This document shows, piece by piece, positions 69-39,100 of a stretch of 42,127 nucleotides of DNA. The stretch is from positions 1 through 42,127 of the IMG/VR virus record IMGVR_UViG_3300006175_000014. One strand, written 5' to 3'. Positions within the stretch are counted from its first letter, which is position 1. Each line of letters starts with the position of its first letter. This DNA is from a virus. The notes below the pieces were generated by a model, which was not told the origin of the DNA, did no database searches, and was given only the letters and a program-made list of their open reading frames with translations. Both the position numbers and the translations under genes were made by a program.

Positions 69-100
69 CCACCCCTCCCATCGTCATTGACCTACTGAAT
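69..100. repeat. Dispersed bipartite motif, copy A
   Basis: CCACCCCTCCC at 69-79, 16 bases, then TGAAT at 96-100. It lies between the beta-helix tail gene and the next minus-strand gene. On the minus strand the G-rich half acts as the SD of the gene starting at 64. Confidence 0.85.
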
Positions 101-121
101 ACCGAATCGCGATTCTACCAG

Positions 122-1927
122 TCAGCCGGTCACCCCCACCGACCACTGGTTGGTCGTGGGTTTCACCGACCCGTCGATCTCCATCCAGGCGCCCGGCCCC
201 AGGTCGAACGTGCTGTAGGGCAACGCGCCGCCGCCGGACTGGGCCGGGGTCATGTTGGTCAGGGCCGGGACTCCTACTCCGCCCGGACCGCCCATCAGGG
301 CACTGGTCTTGACCGCCGTCACGTTCCCGCCTGCCAGCGACACCCGCACCGGCTGCCAGTAGGTGTTTTGGAACGGCGTGCCGAGCGAGTAGGACAGGGC
401 GGCCACCGGCCCTTGAGCCTGCTGCCCGTTCAAAATATTGAGACCGGTGTTGGCGTCGGTCTGGATGCTGGACGCCGTGTACAGGCCGACGATCTTGATG
501 GTTCCCCGGGCACTGGCCAGGGCGCCACTGTTGTCGTCCCGCCAGCGGGGTGCCGGAGACTCCGTGTCCATCTGGTCGATGTCGATGTAAGGACCGATAC
601 CGGCCGCGCCCAGGCCCAGGATGTAGCCGTTGTAGATGCACCCCTCGACGCTGCACTGGTCGATCTTGACGGCGTGACCGGCGCCCGCGCTGTTGAAGTA
701 GTTGCCGACGACCGCCATAGCCGCCCAACCGTACAGGCTGCGCAGGTTGCGCACGTCGGCGTGTTCGGTCAGCATCACGTTGAAGGTGTAGCCGCCCCAG
801 ATGCTTAGGTTCTCGATGTCCAGGATATCGTTGTTGCCGTTGGCCGGGAGTAGCAGGCCCTTGGACGACCCGCCGGACAGCAGCACCGGGTTGTTGAAGT
901 CGCCGCCGACGTAGGTGCCGGTCACCGAGATGTTGACGTCCCGGATGGTGCACTGGGCCACCCCGGTCAGGTCGACCGCGCAGTAGTTCCAGCCGTTGGC
1001 CGACAGGGGGGTGATGATCGTGACGCCGCGCATCACGAAATTCATGTTGCTGTACTTCAGATCCGGGCTGGTGCCGTAGTCGTTCGTCGGCGTCGGCCCG
1101 CCGATCACAGCAGGGTTCCCATTGGCTGTGATGTTGTTGCCCTGGGCCGACTGGCTGGAGAACACCCCGCCGGACACCAGGGTCATCCCGGTGCACTGCG
1201 GCACGGTCTGCTGCCAGAACGCGCCGGTAGCCGCGTACTCGTAGTTGTACGGGCTCAGATGCATCGTCACCTTGTTGACGGGGGGTCCGGGGATGTGCAG
1301 CGGTATCTGGGCGTTGCCGAAGGTCGGTGCCCCGGTCTTGAGCGGGCCGAAGATCCCGTAAACGCCCGGAGGTCCCGTGACGGCGCCAATGCCGAACGCG
1401 TTGGCCTGGGCATAGGCGTTGGCCGCCGTCTCAGCGGAGGTGAACGCACTGGTGTTGTCGCTGCCCCAGAACATCGGGACACCGGACGCGGTCACCGTGG
1501 CGTTGGCGTTCAGAGTCACCTGGGACGGGCTGTTGTACGCCTGGATCTGGGCGACCAGGGACGTGACGCCGGACGCCCCCACGCGCGGCACGATGGTGTA
1601 TTTGCCCACATCGGCGGATGTGAACGGGGTGGTGTTGGGGCAGTTCAACAACGGACTGCCCGACTGCATCGCTCCGTCCGGCACGAACCGGCCGTCCGGT
1701 TTGGCCCCGTACGCCATCACGTCGAACTGCCAGGGCTGCAGGGAGCTGGCAGCTGCCTGCCAGCTCCCGTTGCCCAGCGCGTCCGACGTCCAGATCTTGC
1801 CGGACCCGGCCCCGGCGGGTACCTGCTCGGGTACGGTGCCGGTCAGCACAAGCGTACCCGTCATGGTGTCGCCTGCCTTGGCGACACGGGTAAGGTCGCT
1901 CAGGGCACCATACCCGGTCGCGGCCAC
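122..1927 (-). CDS. Beta-helix (pectate-lyase-like) tail fibre or spike protein
   Basis: 601 residues. The N-terminus has the repeat-like ALSDLTRVAKAGDTMTGTL segment typical of trimeric phage tail fibre N-termini. Around residue 70 comes FDVMAYGAKPDG, the usual entry motif of phage pectate-lyase-fold/beta-helix proteins. The middle is rich in N-, G- and I-containing strands (MRGVTIITP, CTIRDVNISVTG, ILDIENLSIWGG) that fit right-handed beta-helix coils. It is probably a receptor-binding or polysaccharide-degrading appendage; catalytic residues cannot be assigned by eye. GTG start at 1927 with AAGGAG five bases upstream. It lies downstream of the capsid gene and a 172-residue protein. Confidence 0.8.
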   Translation of the reverse strand: MAATGYGALSDLTRVAKAGDTMTGTLVLTGTVPEQVPAGAGSGKIWTSDALGNGSWQAAASSLQPWQFDVMAYGAKPDGRFVPDGAMQSGSPLLNCPNTTPFTSADVGKYTIVPRVGASGVTSLVAQIQAYNSPSQVTLNANATVTASGVPMFWGSDNTSAFTSAETAANAYAQANAFGIGAVTGPPGVYGIFGPLKTGAPTFGNAQIPLHIPGPPVNKVTMHLSPYNYEYAATGAFWQQTVPQCTGMTLVSGGVFSSQSAQGNNITANGNPAVIGGPTPTNDYGTSPDLKYSNMNFVMRGVTIITPLSANGWNYCAVDLTGVAQCTIRDVNISVTGTYVGGDFNNPVLLSGGSSKGLLLPANGNNDILDIENLSIWGGYTFNVMLTEHADVRNLRSLYGWAAMAVVGNYFNSAGAGHAVKIDQCSVEGCIYNGYILGLGAAGIGPYIDIDQMDTESPAPRWRDDNSGALASARGTIKIVGLYTASSIQTDANTGLNILNGQQAQGPVAALSYSLGTPFQNTYWQPVRVSLAGGNVTAVKTSALMGGPGGVGVPALTNMTPAQSGGGALPYSTFDLGPGAWMEIDGSVKPTTNQWSVGVTG

Positions 1928-1936
1928 CGGGACTCC

Positions 1937-2455
1937 TTAGAGGGTGTGCGGCTCGACGGGGGTCTGGTCCGGCGCGGCGGGCTCGGCTGGAACCGATGTG
2001 TCATCGGCAGGGGCGTCCGGCACCAGCTCGTTGGACGGAGTGGCCGTCACGGCGGGCTCGTGGTCGACGATGGACGGGGTGACCGGGACACGGTACTTCA
2101 GGTTCACCGTGTCCTTCTCCCACGGGTGCGGCTCCTCGCCGACGAACTCCGGCTCGCCCTTGGGGTGCAGGCCCCGGTTGATGGCGTCCTGCAGAACCCC
2201 GATCAGGTTGGTCCGGTGGTACTCGTGCTCGGCGGGCAGTCCGGCCGTGTGCGACCGGGTGTGGACCGTAAAGATCCGGGTGAAGAATCCCGGCTCGTGG
2301 TCTTCCGGCTGGCGCTGGGTCACCTCGGCCTCGACGTTGCCGTCCAGCGACGGGAACTGGCCGCCCGTGTAGTCCCGGGTGGTGACCGGGCCGTCGTTGG
2401 CGCCGTCTGTGATCGTCGGCTGATCCGGCGCCGGAAGCGGCGTCTCTTCGGGCAT
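1937..2455 (-). CDS. Hypothetical protein after the capsid gene
   Basis: 172 residues, not recognised. The ends are low-complexity and rich in Pro, Ala, Asp and Glu (EPAAPDQTPVE at the C-terminus). The middle (FTRIFTVHTRSHTAGLPAEHEYHRTN, read in two parts) looks folded. ATG at 2455 with GGAG six bases upstream. The position between major capsid and tail appendage suggests a head decoration or head-tail joining role, which is inference from order only. Confidence 0.75.
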   Translation of the reverse strand: MPEETPLPAPDQPTITDGANDGPVTTRDYTGGQFPSLDGNVEAEVTQRQPEDHEPGFFTRIFTVHTRSHTAGLPAEHEYHRTNLIGVLQDAINRGLHPKGEPEFVGEEPHPWEKDTVNLKYRVPVTPSIVDHEPAVTATPSNELVPDAPADDTSVPAEPAAPDQTPVEPHTL

Positions 2456-2483
2456 TCGGGTCTCCGATCAGGCGGTGGGGGAG

Positions 2484-2514
2484 CGGCCGGGGCTCCGCCT
2501 GAAAACCCCGGCCG
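2484..2514 (-). terminator. Hairpin after the major capsid gene
   Basis: CGGCCGGGG at 2484-2492 pairs with CCCCGGCCG at 2506-2514 (9 bp). It lies 6-37 bases past the capsid stop codon on the minus strand, with no T-run. It may lower transcription into the next gene or stabilise the capsid mRNA end. Confidence 0.55.
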
Positions 2515-2520
2515 CCGTCA

Positions 2521-3567
2521 TCAGATGAGGATGTTGCCCGAGTTGTCCTCGTGCACCGCGAACGCGTTCTCGTGGCCGACCGCGAACGCGCGTCGGGCGC
2601 GCATCTTCAGGATCGACTCATCGGTGAGCGCGGACAGGCCGTTGCGGCCGTCGATGAACACCGACTCCGGCCCGGACCGGCGGCCGACGATCATGTAGTT
2701 GCGGTTCGCCCAGACGATCAGCGGGCTGCCGGTCGGCGTCGGAGTGGCGACGGCCGAGGTCATCGCGCCGAGCGACCAGTGGATCGGAATGCCGAAGATC
2801 GTGTCCGGCGAGGCGGCCATGCCGCCGCCCGGGAACCCGGCCGTCGACTCCTGGAAGATCGGGCGCTGGTTGGTGTCCTTGATGTTGCGCAGGATGTTGC
2901 GGTAGGCCGGGTGGGCCAGGCACACCATCTCGGAGATGTCGAAGTAGTTGCCGCGCTCGACGTTGCCCAGGGAGTTGGACAGGGTCACGTAGGTCGTACC
3001 GCCGGACCCGGTCTGGGTCAGGTTGGCGTTGGCGGTGTAGCCTGTGGCGCTGTCGCTCTGGGTCAGGGTGTAGTACACCGACGCGAACGGGACCCCCGCG
3101 CCCGGTGCCGCGCTGACGGCCAGGCAGGAGTTGTCGAACATCTTGCCGTACGAGGTCGCCCAGTCCTTCTGCTTCGTGGCGATGACGTCGGCGATCGCGT
3201 CGTCGATGTCCTCCTCCGCGATGCGGACGGCCATGCCGAACTTCTGGGCGGACAGGATCACCGCGTCGTTGACCGACTGGTCCTCGCCGTACGTGCCGCC
3301 CTTGGCGACCAGCGAGACGCCGATGCCCGCGCTGCGGGGGACGGAGCGCGTCTCCGAGTTCATGGGGACCGGGGATCCGAGCGCCTCGACGCCCGAGATC
3401 TGGTTCACCCGCATGATCACCTGGGAGTCGAACTCCTCGGGGATCCACGCTTCCATCGTGTCGCGGGCGCCACCCGCGACGGCGTAGACCGGACGCCCGT
3501 CCGGCAGGATGGTCAGAAGAGTACGCGCGGGAACAGACGGTCCCGCGAGCAGGCTGGAGCGGAACAT
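2521..3567 (-). CDS. Major capsid protein (HK97-like fold)
   Basis: 348 residues. The order scaffold, then capsid, and the sequence character support the call: EAWIPEEFDSQVIMRV near residue 39, an acidic E-loop-like region (GTYGEDQSVNDAVI), and a C-terminal part with FGIPIHWS and VGRRSGPESVFIDGRNGLS, as in actinophage HK97-type capsid proteins. The open frame runs further upstream, but ATG at 3567 is the right start: GGAGGAC lies 7 bases before it and codon use changes there. Residues 16-36 share a GRPxYxVxGGA motif with the scaffold protein upstream. It forms the capsid shell. Confidence 0.88.
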   Translation of the reverse strand: MFRSSLLAGPSVPARTLLTILPDGRPVYAVAGGARDTMEAWIPEEFDSQVIMRVNQISGVEALGSPVPMNSETRSVPRSAGIGVSLVAKGGTYGEDQSVNDAVILSAQKFGMAVRIAEEDIDDAIADVIATKQKDWATSYGKMFDNSCLAVSAAPGAGVPFASVYYTLTQSDSATGYTANANLTQTGSGGTTYVTLSNSLGNVERGNYFDISEMVCLAHPAYRNILRNIKDTNQRPIFQESTAGFPGGGMAASPDTIFGIPIHWSLGAMTSAVATPTPTGSPLIVWANRNYMIVGRRSGPESVFIDGRNGLSALTDESILKMRARRAFAVGHENAFAVHEDNSGNILI

Positions 3568-3680: not shown

Positions 3681-3698
3681 TCGCCCGCCACTTACCCT

Positions 3699-4603: not shown

Positions 4604-5779
4604 TCAAGGGCGCCTCGCGCTACCGCGCGGTACGCTCCGGCTATCAAAACGCTTATTCCGTACCTGTCGGCGGGCGCGGTCCTCTACCGTCTTGGGCATT
4701 CCGGCGCCGCGCCGCAGCAGCCTGTCGGCGGCATTGATCCGTGCGGCCTGAGACTCGCTGGGCAGGCTCCAGCCGCGCAGTACCGACCGCTTGGCCTCGC
4801 GCCGCAGCGCTGCAGGCAGATCGACCTGCGCCGCCAGGTCGGGTCGGTTGTACAGCGCGCCGTCCAGCGGTCCGCCCTCGACGCTGCGCATTCCGAACCA
4901 CAGCTCGGCGTGGCAGCGGCAGAAGTTGTGCCGGGGCGGCCCGGTCAACGGCATCTCCGGCGGCCAGATCGGCGGAGCCGACCCCGGCTTCCCGAAGGTC
5001 GCATCCTCGTCGAACCCCTCGCCGGTCATGGGGTCGATCAGGTGTCCGGACAGGGCCAGGCACACCACGCACGCGTCCCGCTCGGCCACCCACAGCAGCT
5101 GGCCGCCTCGCTGTCCGGCCACCACGGCCAGCCCGTGGCTGTTGGCCGTCGATATCGCGTACGACACCGCCCGGTCCACCGGGGTGGAGATCTGCTGCGC
5201 CTTGGCCTGAACGGCGGTCAGGTCCTTGAATTCGGACACGCCCAGGGACTGCGCCATCTGCTGGGCCGCATCGACCCGTTCGGCCACCGCCTGCGCCACC
5301 CCTCCCACAGCCTGGCTGACTGAAGATGGAAGACTGAGGCCGACCGCCGGGACGGGCTGCGACACGTATCGGTTGCCGTACTCCAGTCCGCGCCGGACCG
5401 CGAGATCGGCATAGTGGGCCAGGGGGGTGGAGAAATCGATTCGGCGCAGCGCGTCCAGCTCGGCCACGATCTGGCCGACCAGCTGCTGGGCCTGTACCGC
5501 GTCCAACGGCTGCTCGATCGACCCGGCCAGCACGACGTACCGCCCGGCGATCTGCTGAAACAGGCGCTGTATCAGGGTCCTCAGATTGGCGGTAGCAGCG
5601 CTGCGTGCCTCGTGCTCCAGCGCCAGCAGTCCGGCCGCCGCCGCGTAGTTCTGCGCCAGCGTCAGCCGGACGGCCTCAGCCTCCTGCGGGTCGTTCCCCG
5701 CCGCGTCATCGGCCACGGACGGACCCGCCGTGCCGGATAGCCACTTCAGACGCTTCGTCTGGTGTCCATCCGGATACAC
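4604..5779 (-). CDS. MuF-like head morphogenesis protein
   Basis: 391 residues. Residues about 230-300 carry the Cys/His pattern of the Mu F/SPP1 gp7 family: ERDACVVCLALSG, then GPPRHNFCRCHAELW. These minor head proteins sit at the portal and are encoded between portal and scaffold, as here. The N-terminal half is helical and Ala-rich. The GTG start at 5779 has GAAGG seven bases upstream and overlaps the GNAT gene by 74 bases; a later GTG at 5716 is an alternative. One copy of the dispersed CCACCCCTCCC motif lies inside the gene near 5300. Confidence 0.85.
   Translation of the reverse strand: MYPDGHQTKRLKWLSGTAGPSVADDAAGNDPQEAEAVRLTLAQNYAAAAGLLALEHEARSAATANLRTLIQRLFQQIAGRYVVLAGSIEQPLDAVQAQQLVGQIVAELDALRRIDFSTPLAHYADLAVRRGLEYGNRYVSQPVPAVGLSLPSSVSQAVGGVAQAVAERVDAAQQMAQSLGVSEFKDLTAVQAKAQQISTPVDRAVSYAISTANSHGLAVVAGQRGGQLLWVAERDACVVCLALSGHLIDPMTGEGFDEDATFGKPGSAPPIWPPEMPLTGPPRHNFCRCHAELWFGMRSVEGGPLDGALYNRPDLAAQVDLPAALRREAKRSVLRGWSLPSESQAARINAADRLLRRGAGMPKTVEDRARRQVRNKRFDSRSVPRGSARRP
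5296..5324. repeat. Dispersed bipartite motif, copy B
   Basis: CCACCCCTCCC at 5296-5306, 14 bases, TGAA at 5321-5324. Inside the MuF-like gene, where the minus strand reads it as VGGVA. Confidence 0.85.
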
Positions 5780-8682: not shown

Positions 8683-10353
8683 TCAGGCTGTCCCTTCGTC
8701 GAACTCGGTGGTGGACTCCTCCGGCAGGTTAAGGATGCCCATGATGATCTGGTTCACCTGGTCGCCGTCCAGCACGCCCAGCCCCACGGCCGCGCCCATG
8801 GCCTGAGCCGCCGTGGCCACCTTGGTCAGGATGTCGACCCGCTGCCCCAGGTCGTCGCCCTGGTACGGCAGCCACGCGTCGACCTGCTCCTCGTGGTATC
8901 CCGCTTCCAGCAGTGTCTGGCGGGGCGGCACGCCGCAGTCTTGCTTGAGCTTGATCATCGACCACCCCTGCAGATCGTCGATCGTGGCACCGGGCGTCCA
9001 GCGGATTACAATGTTGGACCCGACGATGCCCGCCTGCTCACCGTCCCAGGTGGCGATCTTCAGCGCGAACCGCATGGCGTCGACGTGAGTGGATCCGTAG
9101 CTGATCTGCCGACGCTGGACCTTCTTGAGCAGCGGCACCTCGGCTGCCCGGATCGACTCGCCGGACGGAGGCAGCCGGGTGTAGGTCTGCGGATCGAAGT
9201 AGTGCACGGGAGTGGTGGTGACCTGGGCCATCATCCGGATGTAGGTGTCCAGCGGCGTCATGAACACGGCCGGATCTGGAGGGTTGAACTGCCCGGCCTG
9301 CTTGACCCCGTTCAGCCACCACACCTCGCCCGGACCGGACCGTAGGGTGCTGTCGTGCCCGGTGTCCTCGAACCGGTTGATGTCGTCCGAGGTGTCGAAA
9401 TCGGCCAGCTCGTCCGACCGGTTGCCTGCCTCCGACAGCAGGTAGCGCTGGGGAAAGCCGTGATAGTCGATCGTCGCCGCGTGGGTGATGATCAGCTTGT
9501 TAATGCAGTCCTGGGGCCCGTACGCGGCCCGGTGCTCGGGATCGCCGTACGGCGTCCCGGTCCGATAGTGGAACACCGGGATCTCGCCGTACGGGTTGGC
9601 CACCGGCCACCCCTCGTCGTCCTGGTCGGAATACCTCATCCAGTCCCGCCGCCGGTTGCCCTTGGCGTTGGTCACGGTGATGTACTTCTCGATCCGGTCC
9701 GGATAGTACAGGTTGATCCGGGTCGGCGGCTTGCTCTTCACGCCCAGCTGGGCCGGGACCGTCCACTTCTTGATGGCGAACCGCTTGTAGCGCGGGTTCT
9801 CCGTGTCGTACACCAGCCGCATCGTCTTGGGGCTGTTGTAGAACATGTCGACCAGGGTGTACCCGGGGTCCTCGTCCACCGACTCGTCGCCCGGCCCGTC
9901 CTCCCCCTCAGGGATGGAGGCGGGCCACACCATCAGATACGCGTCGCCGAACTCTCCGGCCCGTCGGTGCAGGTCGGTGGCGTTCAGTTGCATCTGGTTG
10001 TAGGTCCAGATGTCCTTGAGCAGCGCGTCGGCCTCGTCGTCGTCGGGGATCGAGATCGCGTTGATCTCCAGGCGGTCCGCCATCACGTCGACCGGGGTCT
10101 TGGCCAGGTTGAACCTGAACGTGATGCCCGTACGCTCCAGGGCGCGCCGCAGCCGGATGCTGGCAAAGAACTCCGGGTTGGTGGCCTCGTAGTACATCTC
10201 GGCGCGGTGGTAGTCCGGCAGCGAGTCGGCCATCAGCTGCAGGCCCATCATCAGGTCCGGATTGTCCGGGCCGAGCTCGCCGTCCTCGTCGGCCACGCTG
10301 CGCCACCCCTCCCGGGTCCCTATCGAATACTGAAGGCTGAACCAGCGTATCAT
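8683..10353 (-). CDS. Portal protein
   Basis: 556 residues, the usual size for siphovirus portals. DYHRAEMYYEATNPEFFAS near the N-terminus, the DAYLMVWP strand, PYGEIPVFHYRTG, and the long C-terminal helices (QTYTRLPPSGESIRAAE, then REA-type packing) match the SPP1 gp6-like portal family of actinophages. It forms the 12-mer at the packaging vertex. ATG at 10353 has GGAGGGG seven bases before it. An internal in-frame GTG (MADEDGELG) also has a GGGAGGGG in front, supplied by a dispersed motif copy, so a second start is possible. It diverges from the plus-strand island. Confidence 0.88.
   Translation of the reverse strand: MIRWFSLQYSIGTREGWRSVADEDGELGPDNPDLMMGLQLMADSLPDYHRAEMYYEATNPEFFASIRLRRALERTGITFRFNLAKTPVDVMADRLEINAISIPDDDEADALLKDIWTYNQMQLNATDLHRRAGEFGDAYLMVWPASIPEGEDGPGDESVDEDPGYTLVDMFYNSPKTMRLVYDTENPRYKRFAIKKWTVPAQLGVKSKPPTRINLYYPDRIEKYITVTNAKGNRRRDWMRYSDQDDEGWPVANPYGEIPVFHYRTGTPYGDPEHRAAYGPQDCINKLIITHAATIDYHGFPQRYLLSEAGNRSDELADFDTSDDINRFEDTGHDSTLRSGPGEVWWLNGVKQAGQFNPPDPAVFMTPLDTYIRMMAQVTTTPVHYFDPQTYTRLPPSGESIRAAEVPLLKKVQRRQISYGSTHVDAMRFALKIATWDGEQAGIVGSNIVIRWTPGATIDDLQGWSMIKLKQDCGVPPRQTLLEAGYHEEQVDAWLPYQGDDLGQRVDILTKVATAAQAMGAAVGLGVLDGDQVNQIIMGILNLPEESTTEFDEGTA
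10303..10334. repeat. Dispersed bipartite motif, copy C
   Basis: CCACCCCTCCC at 10303-10313, 17 bases, TGAA at 10331-10334. In the portal N-terminus, read as REGWR, a frame different from the GGVA frame of most other copies. Confidence 0.85.
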
Positions 10354-11318: not shown

Positions 11319-11648
11319 ATGGGAAAGCGCAGGCGCATCGCGTCGTGCAACGTTCACGAGGACTTCGACCAGGACGACCCTGGCGAGCGGCACATCCTGC
11401 TGGAGTGGCGGGGCGGTGTCATGTTCCAGCCCACCGGTATCCAGGTGGGCTACCAGATGCGCGACGCCGACTGGCAGACCGGGCACATCTCCGTCTACGG
11501 CCGACGCATCCTGAAGGGCGGCGGACTCGGCCAGTCGGTCAGCGTCCGGTACTACTCGGACAGCGAGCAGAGGGGCGCTCCCGCGTGGATCAAGCAGTGG
11601 GCGGCCGATAACCGCCCGGACCAGCTCCCCTGGAGGGACGAGGCATGA
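11319..11648 (+). CDS. Hypothetical protein
   Basis: 109 residues. HILLEWRGGVMFQPTGIQVGY and SVSVRYYSDSEQRG suggest a small beta-rich fold. Not recognised. ATG at 11319 with AAGGAG upstream; its TGA overlaps the ATG of the SGNH hydrolase gene (ATGA), so the two are translationally coupled. Confidence 0.8.
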   Translation: MGKRRRIASCNVHEDFDQDDPGERHILLEWRGGVMFQPTGIQVGYQMRDADWQTGHISVYGRRILKGGGLGQSVSVRYYSDSEQRGAPAWIKQWAADNRPDQLPWRDEA

Positions 11649-12823
11649 GTGTCAAGAGATGGACGGCGGTGCTGGCTGCGGCCGGTGCCGTGGCGGGCAG
11701 TGTGCTGGCCAGCCAGTCGGCCCACGGCAGCACCGTGGCGTGGTCGGCCAGCTGGGGCACCGCACAGGCGCAGGCTGTGTCCGTCGGCCCGTGGCAGAAC
11801 CAGACCCTGCGGATGGCCGTGCGCTCGTCGCTCGGCGGTACCCAGGTCCGGGTGCACCTGGCCAACACCTTCGTGACCGGCGGCGCCAGCTTCGCCCACG
11901 TGTCGGTCGGGGTGCAGCAGGACGGCGCGCAGACCCAGGCCGTACCGGTGTCCCTGACGTTCGGGGGGTCGTCCTCGGTGGTCCTGGGGGCGGGCGCCTC
12001 GGTGGTGTCCGACCCGACCGCGCTGGCCGTGCCCGCGAACAGCCGCCTGCTGGTCAGCCTGTACATCCCGTCGGGGGCCAACATCACCTCGGCCCCCATG
12101 CACCAGCTGCCGGACGAGGAGGAGTACAACATCGTCGGCAGCGACGCCGCCGGGCTGCAGAGCCCTACGGTCAGCAATATGTTCAACTTCACCAGCTACG
12201 TCACCGGAGTCGATGTGGGCACGGCCGCCGCACAGACCGTGGTGGCGGCGGGCGACTCGATCACCGACGGCACGTCGGCCACGGTCGACGCCGACACCCG
12301 CTGGCCGGACTACCTGGCCGACCGCGCGGCGTCCGCAGGATTCGCTGTGGTGAACGAGGGCATCGTGAACGACTGGGTGACTGCCGACCAGCCGGGCAAT
12401 CAGTCGCTGACCAACCGGTGGAACCGCGACGTGCTGACGGTGCCGGGTGTGCGGACGGTGATCGACGCCGCAGGTATCAATGACCTGCGGGGCGGAGTGT
12501 CGGCGCCCACCCTGGAGGCGGCACAGAACTCCCTGATCGCCAAGGCGCACACCCTGGGTATCAGGGTGCTGCTGACCACGGTCACCCCGTGCTCGGGGGC
12601 GACTCTGTGCACGTCGGCATTCGAGACCCAGCGGCTGGCCTACAACACGTGGGTGACCAGCGGTGCCAGCACGGCCGACGGCTGGGCCGACTTCAGCTCG
12701 GCCGTGTCGTCGCCGACCACGCCGTCCGCGCTGAGCAGCATCTACGACTCGGGCGACCACATCCACCCGGGACCGGCGGGGTATGCCGTCCTGGGCAACG
12801 TGGTCAGCCTGTCGGAGCTGTGA
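11645..12823 (+). CDS. Secreted SGNH/GDSL-family hydrolase
   Basis: 392 residues. An N-terminal signal peptide (basic VKRW, then hydrophobic Ala/Val run ending near SAHGS) is followed by a beta-rich domain (to about residue 195) and an SGNH hydrolase domain. Block I is VVAAGDSITDG (catalytic Ser), block III is AAGINDL (G-x-N-D), and block V is SGDHIHPGPAGY (Asp-x-x-His). This is the arrangement of actinomycete secreted esterases/lipases. The phage would export it from the infected or lysogenic cell, where it could deacylate cell-envelope glycans or lipids. It is unusual cargo between portal and TerL genes and may be acquired from a host. Confidence 0.9.
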   Translation: MSVKRWTAVLAAAGAVAGSVLASQSAHGSTVAWSASWGTAQAQAVSVGPWQNQTLRMAVRSSLGGTQVRVHLANTFVTGGASFAHVSVGVQQDGAQTQAVPVSLTFGGSSSVVLGAGASVVSDPTALAVPANSRLLVSLYIPSGANITSAPMHQLPDEEEYNIVGSDAAGLQSPTVSNMFNFTSYVTGVDVGTAAAQTVVAAGDSITDGTSATVDADTRWPDYLADRAASAGFAVVNEGIVNDWVTADQPGNQSLTNRWNRDVLTVPGVRTVIDAAGINDLRGGVSAPTLEAAQNSLIAKAHTLGIRVLLTTVTPCSGATLCTSAFETQRLAYNTWVTSGASTADGWADFSSAVSSPTTPSALSSIYDSGDHIHPGPAGYAVLGNVVSLSEL

Positions 12824-15016: not shown

Positions 15017-15046
15017 CGCGTAGACCCCCGTCAGGGGGTCTACGCG
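15017..15046. terminator. Bidirectional terminator between convergent genes
   Basis: Perfect 13-bp stem: CGCGTAGACCCCC (15017-15029), loop GTCA, GGGGGTCTACGCG (15034-15046). It ends the plus-strand island and overlaps the last codons of the terminase gene on the minus strand. Confidence 0.85.
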
Positions 15047-16710
15047 TATCCGCCCACGGCGCGCACGCCGGGCTTGGCCTCAGGTCGGCGCAGGAACCTG
15101 GTGACCAGCGCGCCGACGGCGTCCACCATGTCGTCGTTCGGAGCCTTGGGGAAGCCGACCATCTGCTCCTCCAGCGCCGACATGCGCTGGGTGTGCTTGA
15201 CCCGGTGGCGCTGGTAGTGCGCCAGCGCGTGCGCTGCCCGCACCCGCTTGTCGATGGTGGAGTCGATCAGCTGGATCTTGCACGGCAGATGGTGCAGGAT
15301 GTCGTACCAGTGCTCGCCGCCCTTGTTGACCTCGACCACGACCAGGCCGATCTCCGGGAACGCCTCCAGGATCTGCAGCACCTTCTGGCGCAGGCGCTCT
15401 CCGACCAGCTTGACCTGCTCGGCGTGCATGACCTCGCACGCGCCCAGGTTGCCGAATATCATGGCCGTGATGTCCTCGGCATCAGTGGTCTGGCGCCGGG
15501 GGTCCTTCCTGGGCGGCGGCATCCAGCCGACCACGGCCAACCCGGTCCAGTCGCTGGTCTTCTTGGTCTTGTCGGCTGGGTCGATCGACAGCGCCACCTT
15601 GGTCTTGAACGGCAGCGACCCATACTCGAAGTCGTCCTTGGACCAGTAGTCCCCATCCAGGCCCATCGGGCTGTTGGCAAAGTTCTTGAGATACGACCGC
15701 GTGTGCCGGATCCCCAGCAGGTAGTCCAGCGGCCACTTGGCGGGCCAGATGGAGCGCTCCGACCCGTCGTCGGCGACGATGATCGGGGCGTGGTAGTGCA
15801 CCCGTATGTTCTGCTCCCGGATCCACTCCGGGTGCTCCTCGTCCGGCTCCGTGACCGATTTGACCAGCTGGTGCACGATCGAGCCGGGCATGGTCACCGT
15901 GCCCGAGATCACCACGTCGGCGTACTCGTTCAGCGGCATGATGACATCGGTGACCGTGTTCAGACGGCCTTCGATCTGGTACTCGCTGTACTGGTCCTCG
16001 CCCGGCTCGATGTCGTCCAGGATCAGCTTGTCCGGCCGTGTGTGGCCGACCTTCATGCCCAGGGTCTTGGAGTCGGCGCCGCGCGCCCCGAACACGAACC
16101 CCGACTTGCGGATCGTCAGGCCCTTGGTGTCCGACAGCGTCATCCCGCGCGCCCGGACGGCGGGCTCGCACAGGTCGGGGAAGTCCCTTTTCAGCAGGGT
16201 GTTGGTGTCCAGCTCGTTCTTGAACGTCTGCAGGTGCATCTCCGCCTGGGTGCCCGAGTCGGCAAAGGCGGCGATGAACTTGCGGTGCCCGTGCGCCGCC
16301 TCCCACAGCGGCAGGATCAGGAAGTGCCACGTCGACTTGCCAGTCTCACGCGGGGCGACGTAGGCGTCCCGGTTCTGCCGTGGCCGCAGGGCCGGAGTCA
16401 GCACCCGCTGCAGTGCCTGCTGGCACCACTCCAGGTGCGCGTCACAAAGGGTGATCCGGTTTCTCGTGGCTGGCGCCCGCAGATGGTGGCGCAGATACAG
16501 CAGGGCGAACAGGAGGGGGTCGTACTTGGTCAGGGCGCGGCGGCCCTCGGGCGACTTGAGTAGCTTGGGGTGATGCCGGGTGACGTACGCCTGCGGGTTC
16601 AGGTCGGTAGATGTGAGCCCGGCCAGGTACGCCACCCCTCCCGCGTCAGTCGACCCTACTGAATCGCTGTCGCCGAAATTGAGAGAGGTGGCGTCCTCGG
16701 TTACCGTCAC
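15040..16710 (-). CDS. terL: Terminase large subunit
   Basis: 556 residues. ATPase domain: Walker A-like VAPRETGKST (about residue 117), Walker B KLILDDIEP with a following acidic residue, coupling motif ISGTVTMPGS. Nuclease domain: SIDPADKTKKTSDW (first Asp), VVVEVNKGG, and PNDDMVDAVGAL (last acidic pair). It packages DNA into the prohead through the portal. GTG at 16710 sits exactly six bases after TAAAAT, so the message is probably leaderless. The gene is separated from portal by the whole plus-strand island, an unusual arrangement. A dispersed motif copy lies near the N-terminus. Confidence 0.92.
   Translation of the reverse strand: MTVTEDATSLNFGDSDSVGSTDAGGVAYLAGLTSTDLNPQAYVTRHHPKLLKSPEGRRALTKYDPLLFALLYLRHHLRAPATRNRITLCDAHLEWCQQALQRVLTPALRPRQNRDAYVAPRETGKSTWHFLILPLWEAAHGHRKFIAAFADSGTQAEMHLQTFKNELDTNTLLKRDFPDLCEPAVRARGMTLSDTKGLTIRKSGFVFGARGADSKTLGMKVGHTRPDKLILDDIEPGEDQYSEYQIEGRLNTVTDVIMPLNEYADVVISGTVTMPGSIVHQLVKSVTEPDEEHPEWIREQNIRVHYHAPIIVADDGSERSIWPAKWPLDYLLGIRHTRSYLKNFANSPMGLDGDYWSKDDFEYGSLPFKTKVALSIDPADKTKKTSDWTGLAVVGWMPPPRKDPRRQTTDAEDITAMIFGNLGACEVMHAEQVKLVGERLRQKVLQILEAFPEIGLVVVEVNKGGEHWYDILHHLPCKIQLIDSTIDKRVRAAHALAHYQRHRVKHTQRMSALEEQMVGFPKAPNDDMVDAVGALVTRFLRRPEAKPGVRAVGGYA
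16632..16664. repeat. Dispersed bipartite motif, copy D
   Basis: CCACCCCTCCC at 16632-16642, 17 bases, TGAAT at 16660-16664. Within the terL N-terminal region, read as GGVA on the minus strand. Confidence 0.85.
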
Positions 16711-22794: not shown

Positions 22795-23028
22795 CTACGC
22801 CACCCCTCCCGCTTGCGTCTCCGATTGAACACTGACCACGGTCCTGGCCTCGGACCTTATCGTGATGAACTTGCCGCCGGGCTGGATGTCGGCGGTCAGA
22901 GTGCGGCCCCGGGCGGCGGCGGCACTCCTGAGCCTGTGGACCATCGTCTCGGCCGGACCGGTGAAGTCGCGCGGCCGGACCAGGGTCCACTCCCGGCCGT
23001 CCAGCCACTCGTCAAAGGGGTATCTCAC
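22795..23028 (-). CDS. Small protein, first gene of the TerS operon
   Basis: 77 residues, MRYPFDEWLDGREWTLVRPR then DFTGPAETMVHRLRSAAAAR and a strand KFITIRSEARTVVSV. A small alpha/beta protein, not recognised by name. GTG 23028 sits six bases after TATAAT, so it is likely leaderless. Its last codons and the TerS SD both lie in dispersed motif copy E. Confidence 0.72.
   Translation of the reverse strand: MRYPFDEWLDGREWTLVRPRDFTGPAETMVHRLRSAAAARGRTLTADIQPGGKFITIRSEARTVVSVQSETQAGGVA
22800..22830. repeat. Dispersed bipartite motif, copy E
   Basis: CCACCCCTCCC at 22800-22810, 15 bases, TGAAC at 22826-22830. At the junction of the 77-residue gene and TerS. Confidence 0.85.
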
Positions 23029-23617: not shown

Positions 23618-23866
23618 TTACCCCCCGCCCGGACGCCAGTCCGGGCGGATGGCATCGCCCAATCCCCTCCGGTACTTGCCGTCCGGCTTATTGCCGGTCA
23701 GATGCCACAGGCCGCAGTGATCGCACGGATGCGTCGCACAGGTCACCCGCTCGATCTTCTGATCCTCGTTGCGCAGCCTGAAGTGTATGTCCAGCAGCGC
23801 CAGCTGGGCCTCCAGCTCGGTCGGGTACTTGTACTTGCCGGTCTGCTCACACCACCGTCTGGACAC
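23618..23866 (-). CDS. Small CGLWH-type zinc protein
   Basis: 82 residues: GKYKYPTELEAQLALLDIHF, then TCATHPCDHCGLWHLTG. The C-x6-CxxC-GxWHLT ending is common in small phage proteins and is shared with the protein at 10990. Probably zinc-binding. GTG 23866 overlaps the end of the sigma factor gene by 20 bases, so it is co-transcribed with it. Confidence 0.78.
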   Translation of the reverse strand: MSRRWCEQTGKYKYPTELEAQLALLDIHFRLRNEDQKIERVTCATHPCDHCGLWHLTGNKPDGKYRRGLGDAIRPDWRPGGG

Positions 23867-24419
23867 GGGCGCGCACCGCCTCGACCGCCCTGAATCTCAG
23901 ACCCCTGACTCCGCTCTCGCTGCACCCCACCGCCTGCGCTATCTCCTCGGTCGACCATCCGTCGGCCGTCATCGCCACTACGGCCGCCCGCCGCAGCGGT
24001 ATCCCCCGCAGCAGCGACACGGCGGCCGACGCCTCCTCGCGCATCAGCATCCTATCCTCCGGCCCCGGACACCGGTCCGACACCAGCTCGACTTCGACCC
24101 CCTCCAGCCCCACCGCCACGTCCGCGATCGCCCGGCGGCGCGCGCCCACCCGGGCCTGGTCGGCCAGGCGGTTGTGTGCTATCGTCACCAGCCACGCGAC
24201 GATCGGCCGCTCATGCGAATACGAACCGATACTGCGCCACGCCTTGAGGTAAACGTCCTGTACCGTGTCCTCGGCGTCGGCCGGGGTCCGACACCGCACC
24301 CGCACGTACCCGCGCACCCGCCCGACAGTGGCGCTGTAGATCCGGCCGAACGCGTCAGGGTCCCCCGCCTGTGCGGCGGCGACCCACTCTCTCTCGTCTC
24401 CGGGTATGATCTCGTCCAT
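23847..24419 (-). CDS. ECF-type RNA polymerase sigma factor
   Basis: 190 residues. Region 2: DAFGRIYSATVGRVRGYVRV, then ADAEDTVQDVYLKAWRSIGS and PIVAWLVTIAHNRLADQARV, the classic sigma2 signature. Region 4: LLRGIPLRRAAVVAMTADGW, STEEIAQAVGCSESGVRGLR (HTH). No region 1 or 3 and no anti-sigma gene beside it. It should direct host RNA polymerase to a set of phage or host promoters. GGAG seven bases before ATG 24419. A plausible reader of one of the repeated DNA motifs in this genome. Confidence 0.88.
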   Translation of the reverse strand: MDEIIPGDEREWVAAAQAGDPDAFGRIYSATVGRVRGYVRVRCRTPADAEDTVQDVYLKAWRSIGSYSHERPIVAWLVTIAHNRLADQARVGARRRAIADVAVGLEGVEVELVSDRCPGPEDRMLMREEASAAVSLLRGIPLRRAAVVAMTADGWSTEEIAQAVGCSESGVRGLRFRAVEAVRARVQTVV

Positions 24420-26843: not shown

Positions 26844-26870
26844 GGGGTGGCGCCCGTCCTGCGCCACCCC
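26844..26870. other. Perfect hairpin in a divergent intergenic region
   Basis: GGGGTGGCGC (26844-26853), 7-base loop, GCGCCACCCC (26861-26870). The right arm is the first half of dispersed motif copy F. It lies between the minus-strand KOW-like gene and the plus-strand gene at 26905. Confidence 0.75.
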
Positions 26871-26895
26871 TCCCATGCCATATCGACCACTGAAT
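26864..26895. repeat. Dispersed bipartite motif, copy F
   Basis: CCACCCCTCCC at 26864-26874, 16 bases, TGAAT at 26891-26895. Intergenic, so conserved without any coding role. Confidence 0.85.
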
Positions 26896-33006: not shown

Positions 33007-33588
33007 CTATCCGGTGCGGGGCGCCGGACGTATCGTCCGCTTCCACGCCTCCAGTGCCGCCGCCCCCTGCCTGCGCAGGACGCTCTCTATGAAGAAGTAC
33101 CCGTGCAGCTCGGCCGACTTGGCGTGCGGGCCGTGTCCGTAGGACTTGAACCTGCGCTGCGGCCAGTCCCGCCACGGGTCGCGCTTCAGTACCAGCTTGT
33201 GCTGGTCGGGAGTCTGGATGACCAGCGGCTTGCCGAACCAGCGGCAGATGAACCGGGTGGACCCGATCATCTGGCTGGTCAGGAACTCGCTGCCCTGCTG
33301 CTGGGCCATGAACTCGCCCCGCAGGGCGAACCGCTCGATGATCACCAGGTCCGGCAGCGCCACCCCTCCCACCGCCTCGGCCCATTGAACCGCTCTAGGT
33401 GTCCCGCGACACACCTCCATGAGCCGGTCCTCGAACAGGGTGGGCGAGGTCTCGGTAGCCGCCACGCACACCGCTCCGCGCCACTCGGCCAGCCCGACGT
33501 GAACGTCGCCCGGGTCCACGCTCCACCAAGTGCCGGGCAGCTCGGTGTAGTCATGACTGGCTAGCCTGGCCACCGCTCCGCCTTCCAT
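33007..33588 (-). CDS. RuvC-like Holliday-junction resolvase/nuclease
   Basis: 193 residues. RNase-H fold markers: WWSVDPGDVHVGLAEWRG (catalytic Asp, strand 1), LPDLVIIERFALRGEF (Glu after strand 4), and a C-terminal PHAKSAELHGYFFIESV helix replacing the usual Asp pair of RuvC. Phage RuvC-like proteins resolve branched DNA before packaging. ATG 33588 or GTG 33573; SD spacing is poor for both. A dispersed motif copy lies inside the gene. Confidence 0.78.
   Translation of the reverse strand: MEGGAVARLASHDYTELPGTWWSVDPGDVHVGLAEWRGAVCVAATETSPTLFEDRLMEVCRGTPRAVQWAEAVGGVALPDLVIIERFALRGEFMAQQQGSEFLTSQMIGSTRFICRWFGKPLVIQTPDQHKLVLKRDPWRDWPQRRFKSYGHGPHAKSAELHGYFFIESVLRRQGAAALEAWKRTIRPAPRTG
33360..33390. 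repeat. Dispersed bipartite motif, copy G
   Basis: CCACCCCTCCC at 33360-33370, 15 bases, TGAAC at 33386-33390. In the RuvC-like gene, read as VGGVALPDL, very similar to copy I. Confidence 0.85.
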
Positions 33589-34674: not shown

Positions 34675-35019
34675 TCAGTCCTCCTCTGCCTTGTCGGCGG
34701 GCCTGAGCCAGTCCCGCAGCCCGCCGACAACGAACGCGTGGTCGTCCCGGTGGATGTGGTCCAGGTGCGCGTCGACCGCCTCCAGTACAGTCTCCCTGTC
34801 GCCGGGTCGCAGCAGCAGGCCGTCGCGCCGCAGGTACCGCAGCATCTGGATCTGGGCGGCCATCTGGACCTGCATGAGTGCCAGCGGGGCATTCACGTCT
34901 ACCCTGGCGGGCTTGCCGCTCATCAGCCGGACGACCTCGTCCCGGCCGCCGAGCAGGCCCAGGAACGGCTCCATCCAGCCGGGCGGCCCGTAGTCGCCCC
35001 GATCACGCGGTTCTGACAA
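34675..35019 (-). CDS. Small helical protein, tandem paralogue 1
   Basis: 114 residues from TTG 35019 (SD GGAGGAGG). Shares the PFLGLLGGRDEVVRLMSG unit with the next gene, then MQVQMAAQIQMLRYLRRDGL and a C-terminal helix (AVDAHLDHIHRDDHAFVVGG). Unknown function. Overlaps the JAMM peptidase gene by 17 bases. Confidence 0.8.
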   Translation of the reverse strand: MSEPRDRGDYGPPGWMEPFLGLLGGRDEVVRLMSGKPARVDVNAPLALMQVQMAAQIQMLRYLRRDGLLLRPGDRETVLEAVDAHLDHIHRDDHAFVVGGLRDWLRPADKAEED

Positions 35020-35422
35020 CGTCGACCTCCTCCTCGTACGGCTGGCCTGTCATGGGGTTGACGCGCCAGCAGGTTGCCACCATGCTGTCGTCGACCTTGC
35101 CCAGGATCAGATACCTGACCCGGGGGTCGGCCATGTAGTTGATGTCGGTACGGCTGGGCAGTGGCGGACCGGACGGGTGGCTGTGGTACCAGGCCACCGG
35201 CTCCAGCCCGCGCGCGCCCAGCTCGCCGTACAGCCCGATCAGCCGCTCGGCGCCGATCTCGTAGAACGATCGGGGGTCGGCCGCCTCGTTACGGCAGCGC
35301 ACCATCTCGGTGACCGTGCTCGACCCGATCGGCCCGGCCAGCGCGCCGCAGCACTCACGGGGGTACTCGTCGGCGGCATGATCGGCCATCTGCTTGAGCA
35401 TCCGGTCGGTGACGGTCATCAT
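35003..35422 (-). CDS. JAMM/MPN-family metallopeptidase
   Basis: 139 residues. Complete JAMM motif: EYPRECCGALAG (Glu) and WYHSHPSGPPLPSRTD, i.e. H-x-H-P-x6-S-x2-D for zinc. Length is that of a single MPN domain, as in bacterial JAB peptidases that cut ubiquitin-like or sulphur-carrier tails. In tailed phages an MPN domain is usually fused to NlpC/P60 in tail assembly; here it stands alone among replication genes. The ubiquitin-like protein at 21.2 kb is a possible substrate. ATG 35422 or 35419; GAGGCAGGG upstream. Confidence 0.85.
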   Translation of the reverse strand: MMTVTDRMLKQMADHAADEYPRECCGALAGPIGSSTVTEMVRCRNEAADPRSFYEIGAERLIGLYGELGARGLEPVAWYHSHPSGPPLPSRTDINYMADPRVRYLILGKVDDSMVATCWRVNPMTGQPYEEEVDVVRTA

Positions 35423-35616
35423 CCCTGCCTCACCCACCGGGCCAGCTCCCGCTCCAGCATATCCTTGCGCTTGCGCGACTCGTCAGCCAGCAGACCCACC
35501 AGCTTGAACACCTCGTCCCAGTCCAGGGTCAGCTGCTCGCTCAGGTCCGAACGGAACAGCACCACCCCTCCCGGACTGCTCTCCGTCAAGATCTGTCTGT
35601 GCGCGCCGCCGCTCAT
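35419..35616 (-). CDS. Small protein, tandem paralogue pair member
   Basis: 65 residues, GGVVLFRSDLSEQLTLDWDE, VFKLVGLLADESRKRKDMLE. Resembles the upstream protein (GLVLIGEFGGQ...LDWNGVHALIADLN). ATG 35616 lies inside the 3' part of that gene in another frame. Coupled to the JAMM gene by overlapping stop and start codons. Dispersed motif half-copy H lies inside. Confidence 0.7.
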   Translation of the reverse strand: MSGGAHRQILTESSPGGVVLFRSDLSEQLTLDWDEVFKLVGLLADESRKRKDMLERELARWVRQG

Positions 35617-35818
35617 CCTGCAGCCACCTTCCCCTCTCCCACAGTGCCTGATTCAGGTCCGCTATCAACGCGTGTACGCCGTTCCAGTCCAGCCCCGCCA
35701 CGGCAGTCTGACCGCCGAATTCTCCGATCAGGACCAGTCCCTCTGGATTCTTGCGCCCGATCTGCACCCGCTGGGGCCGCGCGCCGGGTGCGTAGTCTTC
35801 CGGGTTGATGAAGCTCAT
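35483..35818 (-). CDS. Small protein, C-terminus probably overrun
   Basis: 111 residues as read. The first 68 are gene-like (RVQIGRKNPEGLVLIGEFGG, GLDWNGVHALIADLNQALWE); the last 44 (GEQSGRGGAVPFGPERAADP...) run through the next gene in another frame and look like shadow sequence. Suggests a past frameshift near 35620 or a genuine 134-base overlap. ATG 35818, ATGA-coupled to the gene before. Confidence 0.6.
   Translation of the reverse strand: MSFINPEDYAPGARPQRVQIGRKNPEGLVLIGEFGGQTAVAGLDWNGVHALIADLNQALWERGRWLQDERRRAQTDLDGEQSGRGGAVPFGPERAADPGLGRGVQAGGSAG
35572..35582. repeat. Dispersed motif, half copy H
   Basis: CCACCCCTCCC at 35572-35582 without a TGAA at the usual distance (CGTCAAG is there instead). 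Same orientation as the other copies. Confidence 0.6.
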
Positions 35819-36558: not shown

Positions 36559-36582
36559 CGTGTCTACCTCCTCGTCCCCGGT

Positions 36583-36613
36583 ACACTACCCTACCACTTG
36601 ACTTCCTGTCAAG
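36583..36613 (-). promoter_or_regulatory. Operator palindrome and promoter
   Basis: Perfect CTTGAC-TTCCT-GTCAAG (36597-36613). Minus strand: TTGACA, 18-base spacer, TAGTGT (36588-36583). GGGTAGTGTAC also occurs at 27.16 and 21.80 kb. Confidence 0.78.
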
Positions 36614-36854
36614 ACGGATCAACGTAGGCCACGATCTCCACGCTATCGCCGGACGCGTCGGGTCCTCTCCAGTCGATCTCCTGGACCTTCCACGCCTGTG
36701 GGCCCTTGACCAACCAGCCGTCGGCCAGAGCGTCGACCACGGCTGCGGCCAACACTCCGGGGTTGTCGGTCTGGGGCCACTCGAACCGTCCGTGGGCGGT
36801 ATCGAACAGCGTCTGGCGGACCAGTTCGAACAGCTGCTGCCGGGAGCCGGTCAC
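36609..36854 (-). CDS. Small protein downstream of the polymerase
   Basis: 81 residues: helical start (SRQQLFELVRQTLFDTAHGR), NPGVLAAAVVDALADGWLVK, then strand WKVQEIDWRG and VEIVAYVDPS. Not recognised. GTG 36854 overlaps the polymerase TGA (GTGA). Its stop lies within the next operator. Confidence 0.78.
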   Translation of the reverse strand: MTGSRQQLFELVRQTLFDTAHGRFEWPQTDNPGVLAAAVVDALADGWLVKGPQAWKVQEIDWRGPDASGDSVEIVAYVDPS

Positions 36855-39100
36855 TTGGTGGCCTTCCAGCGCTCGGGGACGATCGGGAAGGACATCTTGC
36901 GGCCACGGACCGAGTAGTCGCGCTCGTAGATCTCCGTGCCGATGGCCGCCGCCTGCTGGGCGAGAGAGTAGCCCGCGTCGGTGTCCGGCACCTCGACCAC
37001 CATGCTGTCGTGGATGGCCAGCACCTGGATGCCCGGCAGCTCCCGCTCGACCTGGATCATCCAGGTCTTGCCGGTCTGGGCCAGGTCGCCCTGGATGACC
37101 GCGTTGAACGCCTTATGCGTGTGCTCGTCCGGACCGAACCAGCGGCGCCGCCCGTCGATCAGGGTGACGTAGCCGACTCCGCCCAGCCCCTTGTCGGCCT
37201 TGCACTGGATCCGGTACGGCACGGTGCGGAACTCGGGGAACTGGGCGTAGAACGCGTCGCGTGCCTCGGCCGTCTCCCTGCGGCTGTACTCCAGGCCCGT
37301 GTACTCCAGGATCTGGGCGCGCAGCGTGTCGATACCAGCGCCGTACATGGTGCCGAATGTGACCCGCTTGCCGACGCCCCGCAGGTCCTGGAAGGTGGGG
37401 TCGGTCTCCAGGATCCCCCAGATCCGCTTGGCGTTGGCGCCGTGCAGGTCCTCGCCCGAGTCGATCACGTCCCACATGGCAGAGCAGCCGGTCACCACCG
37501 TCGCGATACGGACCTCGCCCTGGGGCAGGTCCATCTCCCACAAGGCGTAGCCGGGCCGCGCGCCGATCAGGCCCCGGACCGGTCGGTCCTTGACCACGTC
37601 GGGCAGCTGATTGAAGTGGGGGATAGCCTGCAGCTGGACCCGGGAGACGGCCAGGCGGCCGGAGATCGCCCCGCCCTTGGGGGCGCCGGGCCGGTCCGAC
37701 TCGATGGCGGTCTGCATGAAGTCGGTGCGCAGCCGTCCGTCCGGGCCGGTCCGCATCGCCCAGCCCCGGTACCACTTGCCCAGCGCGCTCTTGCAGTGCG
37801 ACCAGTCGTCGTACTCGGCCGCGTACGGCTCGCCGTCCTGGACCAGCAGCCGGATCTGGGCCTCGTCCACGCACGGGTCCCGGCGCTTGTCGGTGACCTT
37901 GATGGGCGTCAGCCCGCGCCCGCCGTCCTCCTTGGCCCCGAAGTAGTACCGGCCGACCTCCTGGACCTTGGCCGGGTCGAACGGCAGATCTCGGGCGATG
38001 TTGTCCATCTCGGCCTGGAGGTCGGCCGCCGCCTGCATGCTGGTCTTGGCGTCGTAGCTCATGCCCCGGCGCTGCATCCGATACAGCACCCGCATCAGGT
38101 CGATGTCCTTGTCGATCTGGTCCCAGGCCCCGGGCGGGGCGTCGCCCTGCTCGATCCGGGCGATCTGGCGGTACAGCAGCATCAGGGCAAGCTCTGCGTC
38201 CCGGGCCGCGTATGGGCCGATGATCGGCCAGGGGATCAGGTCGTACCGCTTGGTCAGGCCGACGCCCAGTTTCTTGAGCGCGGCGGCCAGCTCCTCCTCC
38301 TCCCGGGTGCTGTCCTCGCCCCAGATCCGGCGGGCGGTCCGCTTCAGGGCCACCGGGTGCAGCGGATCCAGCAGCGCCTGGATCAGCATCGTGTCGGCCA
38401 GCTTGGTATTGGGGCAGTGCTTGTCGATGTCCAGCCCGAATACGGGGCCGAGCGGGTCGTCTCCCCACAGGATCGGGTCGATCGCCTGCTGGGCCTGCGG
38501 GCTGAACTCGGCGCGCAGCCGGGGGTTGTGCAGCCACTGGTCCCGGGCGATCTCCTCGCGCGGGCCCACCGTGGCCACGGTCAGGTCGTGCTTGGCGTTG
38601 TGCATCACGATGTAGTCGCGCGCCCGCAGCCACCGCAGCAGGTTGATCCAGTGTTCCAGCCCCAGGTTGGGGCAGGCCTCCTCGTAGGTCATCGGCCGGT
38701 CCGGCACCTCGCCGACCATGTCCTCCCCCGGCGCCGGTACCGCGTCCCCGGGGACGCGGAACTTCGACAAGATCTTGTCGACATCCTCCTGGGTCAGCAG
38801 CGGGTACCCCCCGCCGTCCCTCGGACGGCGGATCCGGCCCGGCTTGCCGACCATGGGGCCCTGGTCGAACGGCCAGGCGTGGCTGTGGATCTCGCCCGTG
38901 TCGGGGTCCATCCACGCCACGCTCGCCGCACTGACCCGGGCCGGTGGACTGCTCTTCTGCATGTTGGTGTCGGTACCGGGGTCGCCGTCGGGGTGCAGGC
39001 CGGAGCCCTCGGTGTCGAACAACACCGGCCACCCGGGCGGCAGGTCCGGCAGCACCACCCCACCCACCACCATGTCCGACTGAACCGTTGTCCCGCTCAT
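36851..39100 (-). CDS. Family A DNA polymerase with 3'-5' exonuclease
   Basis: 749 residues. DnaQ-like exonuclease: PVLFDTEGSG (Asp29, Glu31), YIVMHNAKHDLTV (Exo II), YAARDAELAL (Exo III). PolA domain: motif A EMDLPQGEVRIA (canonical DYSQIELRI), motif B GVGKRVTFGTMYGAG, motif C VLAIHDSMVVEV. The catalytic acids are kept. In motif A the usual Ser-Gln-Ile is Pro-Gln-Gly. Replicates phage DNA. Because the phage has PurZ, it is a candidate DpoZ, the PolA-type polymerase of Z-genome siphoviruses; that is inference. ATGA overlap with the HTH gene. Dispersed motif copy I is in its N-terminus. Confidence 0.92.
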   Translation of the reverse strand: MSGTTVQSDMVVGGVVLPDLPPGWPVLFDTEGSGLHPDGDPGTDTNMQKSSPPARVSAASVAWMDPDTGEIHSHAWPFDQGPMVGKPGRIRRPRDGGGYPLLTQEDVDKILSKFRVPGDAVPAPGEDMVGEVPDRPMTYEEACPNLGLEHWINLLRWLRARDYIVMHNAKHDLTVATVGPREEIARDQWLHNPRLRAEFSPQAQQAIDPILWGDDPLGPVFGLDIDKHCPNTKLADTMLIQALLDPLHPVALKRTARRIWGEDSTREEEELAAALKKLGVGLTKRYDLIPWPIIGPYAARDAELALMLLYRQIARIEQGDAPPGAWDQIDKDIDLMRVLYRMQRRGMSYDAKTSMQAAADLQAEMDNIARDLPFDPAKVQEVGRYYFGAKEDGGRGLTPIKVTDKRRDPCVDEAQIRLLVQDGEPYAAEYDDWSHCKSALGKWYRGWAMRTGPDGRLRTDFMQTAIESDRPGAPKGGAISGRLAVSRVQLQAIPHFNQLPDVVKDRPVRGLIGARPGYALWEMDLPQGEVRIATVVTGCSAMWDVIDSGEDLHGANAKRIWGILETDPTFQDLRGVGKRVTFGTMYGAGIDTLRAQILEYTGLEYSRRETAEARDAFYAQFPEFRTVPYRIQCKADKGLGGVGYVTLIDGRRRWFGPDEHTHKAFNAVIQGDLAQTGKTWMIQVERELPGIQVLAIHDSMVVEVPDTDAGYSLAQQAAAIGTEIYERDYSVRGRKMSFPIVPERWKATK
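39055..39085. repeat. Dispersed bipartite motif, copy I
   Basis: CCACCCCACCC (one base different) at 39055-39065, 15 bases, TGAAC at 39081-39085. In the polymerase N-terminus, read as VGGVVLPDL. Confidence 0.75.

Follow-up and report, generated by a model that had tools for sequence, protein, structure and literature searches.

A dispersed DNA motif with phage-specific dialects keeps one direction along the genomes of related actinophages

Introduction

The described sequences closest to the motif analysed here are the nick sites of T5, phiKMV and tf, which are phages of Proteobacteria. Phage tf has 14 of them, on one strand only, irrespective of its two convergent transcription units; their consensus shows a one-base dialect in the LUZ24-like relatives, and co-evolution has been proposed (PMC3517423). 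Like these sites, our motif is a short asymmetric word, dispersed mostly on one strand whatever the direction of the genes, with about a dozen copies per genome and with dialects between related phages. The consensus of phiKMV is bipartite, as is the motif in the phage where we first studied it. There are also clear differences: the sites of tf are shorter, perfectly one-stranded and unevenly spread (PMC3517423), whereas the word described here is longer, G-rich, evenly spaced, reversed in a minority of its copies and carried by actinophages.

Dispersed repeats of other kinds are known in actinophages. The SAS/ESAS elements of cluster K mycobacteriophages and cluster EF Microbacterium phages (PMC3203893, PMC7302621) share with our motif a dispersed G-rich word, some copies at ribosome-binding-site positions and a second conserved stretch upstream. 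However, they precede start codons, whereas many of our copies lie in genes or at gene ends and ignore gene direction. The repeats of the lytic Microbacterium phages of clusters EC, EG and EI are also dispersed and their function is likewise unexplained, but they are found at a set distance before start codons (EC, EG) or in short intergenic gaps (EI), unlike this motif (PMC7302621). Finally, the temperate phages of cluster A (PMC6550527) and the R4-like phages (PMC10276819) carry tens of asymmetric stoperators in phage-specific dialects, which in cluster A follow the direction of transcription (PMC6550527). In the literature that we found on actinophages, only start-associated or intergenic repeats are described, and no genome-polar motif. 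Outside this group of repeats, the known Chi words are 5–8 bp long and are read by an enzyme of the host.

Results

A repeated element in the window

The window, i.e., the whole stretch of DNA that we analysed, is the IMG/VR record IMGVR_UViG_3300006175_000014 (42,127 bases, 68.6% GC). Gene calling with a purpose-written codon model placed nearly all genes on the minus strand, and gene models at the motif copies were fixed with the help of homologues. Searches with PHROGs and Pfam recognized the genes of the portal, the terminase large subunit (TerL; 15040..16710, minus strand), the major capsid protein and a family-A DNA polymerase among the minus-strand genes, together with an ECF-type sigma factor (23847..24419, minus strand). 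A block on the plus strand adjoining the portal gene encodes a GDSL-type lipase/esterase (11645–12823), and positions 35003–35422 encode a Prok-JAB family protein.

The preliminary description had reported a dispersed word, CCACCCCTCCC, on the plus strand. The motif is real: there are eight exact copies, all on that strand (at 69, 5296, 10303, 16632, 22800, 26864, 33360 and 35562), and one copy with a single mismatch at 39055; the minus strand has none that is exact. When up to one mismatch is allowed, we found 14 matches where 3.46 were expected. The site at 35572, first taken for a half copy, matches the 11-mer exactly (35562–35572) and lacks only the second box. Since the genes are nearly all on the minus strand, the plus-strand word is the complement of a coding-strand word, and we use the latter sense from here on. 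In this sense the conservation extends beyond the 11-mer, to GGGAGGGGTGGYGYAG, in which the next-to-last position is A or T.

The second box, first noted as TGAA, is indeed present, even if it is longer than originally proposed: it reads TTCA[AG]T on the coding strand, and eight of the ten minus-strand occurrences of this hexamer in the window fall at motif sites. Seven copies of CCACCCCTCCC have TGAA 12–18 nt downstream, compared with none in 100 dinucleotide shuffles. The coding-strand form of the element is thus TTCARY-N12-15-GGGAGGGGTGGYGYAG. Codon-preserving shuffles, which had been set beforehand as a refuting test, gave 0.13 coding copies on average and at most two in 200 shuffles, compared with five observed.

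The copies occupy very different places, all with the G-rich word on the minus strand. The first (64..99; TTCAGT-N14-GGGAGGGGTGGTGCAG) is intergenic, just 5' of the GTG start of a gene cut by the end of the window; the orthologous start in the related contig G001 bears GGGAGGGGGTGGTGTAG at the same place. The second (5291..5324; TTCAGT-N12-GGGAGGGGTGGCGCAG) lies within a gene, where it is read as GGVAQ, and is intact in contig G014. The third (10298..10334; TTCAGT-N15-GGGAGGGGTGGCGCAG) precedes the GTG start of the portal gene by a few nucleotides and is intact in G017, whereas the fourth (16627..16663; TTCAGT-N15-GGGAGGGGTGGCGTAC) is at or within the N-terminal end of the TerL gene. The fifth (22795..22829; TTCAAT-N13-GGGAGGGGTGGCGTAG) covers the TAG stop of a gene and borders directly on the GTG start of the gene that follows, a junction that also carries the dialect motif in G001, G003, G007 and G009. 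The sixth (26859..26894; TTCAGT-N14-GGGAGGGGTGGCGCAG) is about 60 nt 5' of an ATG start. The last three are in genes: one at about codon 68 of 188 (33355..33389; TTCAAT-N13-GGGAGGGGTGGCGCTG), one near the start of a small gene and without the TTCARY box (35557..35572; GGGAGGGGTGGTGCTG), and one, with a mismatch in the core, in the first codons of the family-A DNA polymerase gene (39050..39084; TTCAGT-N13-GGGTGGGGTGGTGCTG).

Two other contigs belong to the same phage: G013 is 99.99% identical to the window over 19.5 kb, and G018 is 100% identical to G013 over 15.1 kb. Further copies on these contigs lie at the end of a gene, within the primase-polymerase gene and at other places, which brings the set for this phage to 12 sites in the direction of the window and two opposite ones, of which one is antisense in the primase-polymerase gene and the other sense in a plus-strand gene. 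The nine sites of the window are more regularly spaced than random sites (CV 0.29, P = 0.001). With the overlapping contigs, 13 same-strand sites have a mean spacing of 4.8 kb (CV 0.25, P about 5e-6), a set in which the two weakest sites were admitted after their position had been seen.

Related phages use a different dialect

A search with TerL identified twelve related contigs in IMG/VR, nine of them at about 70% identity. An actinophage-like TerL (44%) is also encoded in contig RHCX01000049.1 of a Nitrososphaeria archaeon MAG, which is likely mis-binned. Two of the related contigs, G001 and G009, are about 77 kb long and have terminal overlaps of 123 and 80 bases, which indicates that these genomes are closed on themselves. 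Genes in unannotated contigs were called with a simple codon model, and single starts may be wrong. G007 and G015 are near-copies of G001 and do not count as independent evidence.

The preliminary description had named absence from other places in related phages as grounds for rejection; the motif is present there. Unbiased k-mer counting showed that in most relatives the word takes a dialect form, G-G-g-c-GGGGGTGGTG-T-A-G, which occurs up to about 50 times, both in and between genes. In G001 the form GGGGGTGGTG(TAG) has 42 forward and 13 reverse copies, and patterns are similar in other relatives. These patterns were chosen after the first k-mer table had been seen, and we kept them fixed because a PWM refined automatically over 46 positions ended up tracking codon periodicity in most genomes. 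Starts orthologous to those at 69 and 22800 have the dialect word at the same place in the relatives; the other sites of the window are not significantly closer to sites of G001 than expected by chance (P = 0.17).

The two boxes at a roughly fixed distance, proposed as the design of the motif, are a property of the window that mostly does not carry over to the relatives, where TTCARY is found within 34 nt of only 3 of 122 sites and an upstream AT-rich box shows no general enrichment. The TTCARY box is thus mostly a feature of the dialect of the window phage. Upstream of the portal, G001–G004 and G007–G009 have a conserved TTCAATnGA-like box, often near an inverted pair of G-rich words. Intergenic copies in G001 (67760 and 69674), G007 (84 and 1996) and G003 (16064) come straight after a GC-rich hairpin, the 3' arm of which extends into the word. 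The more distant relatives G010–G012 have another dispersed word, GGGCGGGGAG, which lies mostly within genes of either strand.

The constraint is on DNA

Sense copies within genes greatly exceed the numbers expected from synonymous shuffles in G001 (25 versus 0.75), G002 (13 versus 0.35) and G009 (12 versus 0.34); G001 and G009 show an excess of antisense copies in genes as well. Flanking preferences are common to sense, antisense and intergenic copies, 94–96% of which have, for instance, a G at position -3. As had been proposed, copies occur both in genes and between them, at gene starts, at gene ends and in both senses within genes, with the same flanking bases throughout. When G016 is compared with G001 (about 75% identity), all seven G016 sites persist, with one mismatch in 91 core bases compared with 24.6% in the flanks. 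G014, at 94% identity, has no mismatch in 22 core bases, and G017 none in 11. Seen from the side of G001, several minus-strand sites within genes are unconserved in G016, which suggests that some of the antisense copies are probably due to chance. The motif is a dispersed site under selection at the level of DNA, with phage-specific dialects. This agrees with the original suggestion of a constraint on DNA or RNA, which here bears on DNA and not on protein: the gene contexts vary while the flanks stay the same, and the site is one-sided, as its orientation tracks the genome strand in the relatives.

Orientation follows the genome

In the window as in its relatives, the G-rich strand of the motif coincides with the coding strand of TerL, which we used as the reference. 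In the relatives, the strict motif is on the TerL strand 46 times and off it twice. With the extended motif in six relatives, blocks whose genes run with the TerL strand have 57 copies on it and 8 off, and blocks of opposite genes have 18 on and 1 off (15 and 1 without G007). The minus-strand genes that hold motif sites have a normal third-position GC and look like real genes. The motif thus keeps one direction along the genomes of the relatives whichever way the genes run. This strand bias is strong, albeit not absolute as in tf. Because the genes of the window phage nearly all point the same way, polarity and transcription are inseparable there (orientation agrees with transcription at 13 of 14 sites and with genome polarity at 12 of 14), and the claim of polarity rests on the relatives. 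In contrast, a Shine-Dalgarno-like repeat of Streptomyces phage PHTowN (MT498053), CCCAAGGAGG, follows gene direction in 16 of 17 cases. The same genome has 49 copies of the palindrome TGCCGGCA, where about 4 are expected.

Streptomyces phage KimJongPhill (NC_070830) has a dispersed G-rich word, GG[TC][ATC]GGTGTGG, with 17 copies on the bottom strand and 4 on the top; within blocks of plus-strand genes, 13 are antisense and 1 is sense. This distant relative may thus show the same polar behaviour with a different word.

Search for the reader of the motif

When IMG/VR was scanned for either dialect, repeated copies came up only in this clade, with single matches otherwise. The genomes of 150 Streptomycetaceae, which may not be the host family, have 0–5 copies each in 5–12 Mb, i.e., the level expected by chance, and in six actinomycete genomes the pooled pattern is about as frequent as the controls. 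The lack of repetition in Streptomycetaceae and elsewhere in IMG/VR indicates that the motif is probably read by a factor encoded by the phage, on evidence that is strong, if not final. A Chi-like site was among the options first raised; a Chi or KOPS site read by the host finds no support in these 150 genomes, although the host may lie outside the sample.

Among the possible readers, tyrosine and serine integrases (PF00589, PF00239) had no match in ten records, including the end-overlapping G001 and G009; HNH (PF01844) had none in ten contigs; and a search for an FtsK-type translocase found none. Sigma-70 region 2 was found only in the window (G000) and in the relative G002, and was not found in G001 and G009, both rich in motif copies. 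On the other hand, the window phage encodes a PD-(D/E)XK nuclease (PDDEXK_1), a DEAD/helicase-C2 helicase, an AAA_24 ATPase, a primase-polymerase and the family-A polymerase, and this set is conserved in G001, G002 and G009. The first four are candidate readers conserved in the clade.

Discussion

The motif looks like a signal for the handling of DNA itself, in nicking, recombination or replication, rather than for the reading of genes. Among the options first raised, strand-specific nicking and a polar signal of the Chi, replication or packaging kind stay plausible. We tentatively favour a one-strand DNA-processing site read by a phage factor, most likely a nick site of the T5/phiKMV/tf type. 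A factor encoded by the phage would recognize the dispersed polar site in double-stranded DNA and work on a single strand there. A sequence-specific nickase is the likeliest such factor and would leave localized single-strand interruptions as in those phages. Given the even spacing, these interruptions would divide the strand into segments of about 5 kb. Co-evolution of the factor with its recognition sequence would account for GGGAGGGGTGGYGYAG in the window phage and GGCGGGGGTGGTGTAG in its relatives. Several observations count against nicking: the HNH search had no match in ten contigs, a few copies are reversed, unlike those of tf, the window sites other than 69 and 22800 are not significantly close to sites of G001, and some copies in the relatives form inverted pairs at the divergent junction upstream of the portal, which nick sites do not need. 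Ranked second, and possible at a distinctly lower level of confidence, is a Chi-like or other polar site of recombination or replication. Here the helicase-nuclease or primase machinery of the phage itself would be the reader; its enzyme would meet the site from one side only and then change its activity or load a partner. The motif shares with Chi sites its polarity, over-representation and G-richness, it occurs in genes, and the conserved nuclease, helicase, ATPase, primase-polymerase and polymerase could provide such machinery. The dialect of the relatives also contains GGTGGTG, which we take to be loosely like known Chi words. However, Chi sites are shorter and matched to the host enzyme, whereas this word spans 11–16 bp, is phage-specific and is evenly spaced.

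The remaining explanations concern gene expression, and the fact that orientation follows the genome strand and not transcription in the relatives argues against all of them. An array of operators or stoperators, on which a DNA-binding protein of the phage would block transcription, is unlikely. Asymmetric sites of the 13-bp class, in tens of copies and phage-specific dialects, do recall cluster A and R4-like phages, and the inverted pairs upstream of the portal in several relatives would fit operators. Yet many copies are in genes, the orientation is that of the genome, and integrase was not found in the end-overlapping relatives; we dropped this reading because of the orientation and the integrase result. 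We initially favoured a start-associated sequence or strong ribosome-binding site of the SAS/ESAS type, read in RNA, since GGGGTGG can pair with the 16S tail and the elements at 69, 10303 and 22800 are a few nucleotides before start codons, two of these positions being conserved. We now find it very improbable, and abandoned it because of the copies inside genes or at gene ends in homologues and of an orientation blind to gene direction: only about three elements of the window have the expected place, others are deep in genes or at gene ends (5296 and 33360 in the window, 21279 and 26700 in G013), and antisense copies exist. The least probable is a promoter read by the phage ECF sigma factor, an option of the preliminary description that the data did not bear out. 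Two boxes 12–15 nt apart and the sigma factor gene in the window spoke for it, but the second box is missing from most sites of the relatives, orientation ignores transcription, and sigma-70 region 2 was not found in the copy-rich G001 and G009, which led us to set this reading aside.

In a broader formulation, to which we give slightly less credence than to nicking, the actinophages of this clade could carry a DNA signal that recurs at even distances, points one way and differs in its word from one close relative to the next, in effect a phage-encoded polarity code. Its user would be a DNA-processing enzyme, and the site would be specific to the phage and serve as a Chi, for nicking or for packaging polarity. 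Should the sites be nicked, they would extend to actinophages an unexplained feature of the DNA of T5, phiKMV and tf, and their fast-changing dialects would let the recognizing enzyme be traced by co-variation. If they are Chi-like sites of the phage, a signal so far ascribed to hosts would have a counterpart encoded by phages. In both cases the evidence weighs against an explanation by transcription, and virion DNA offers a way to test the matter.
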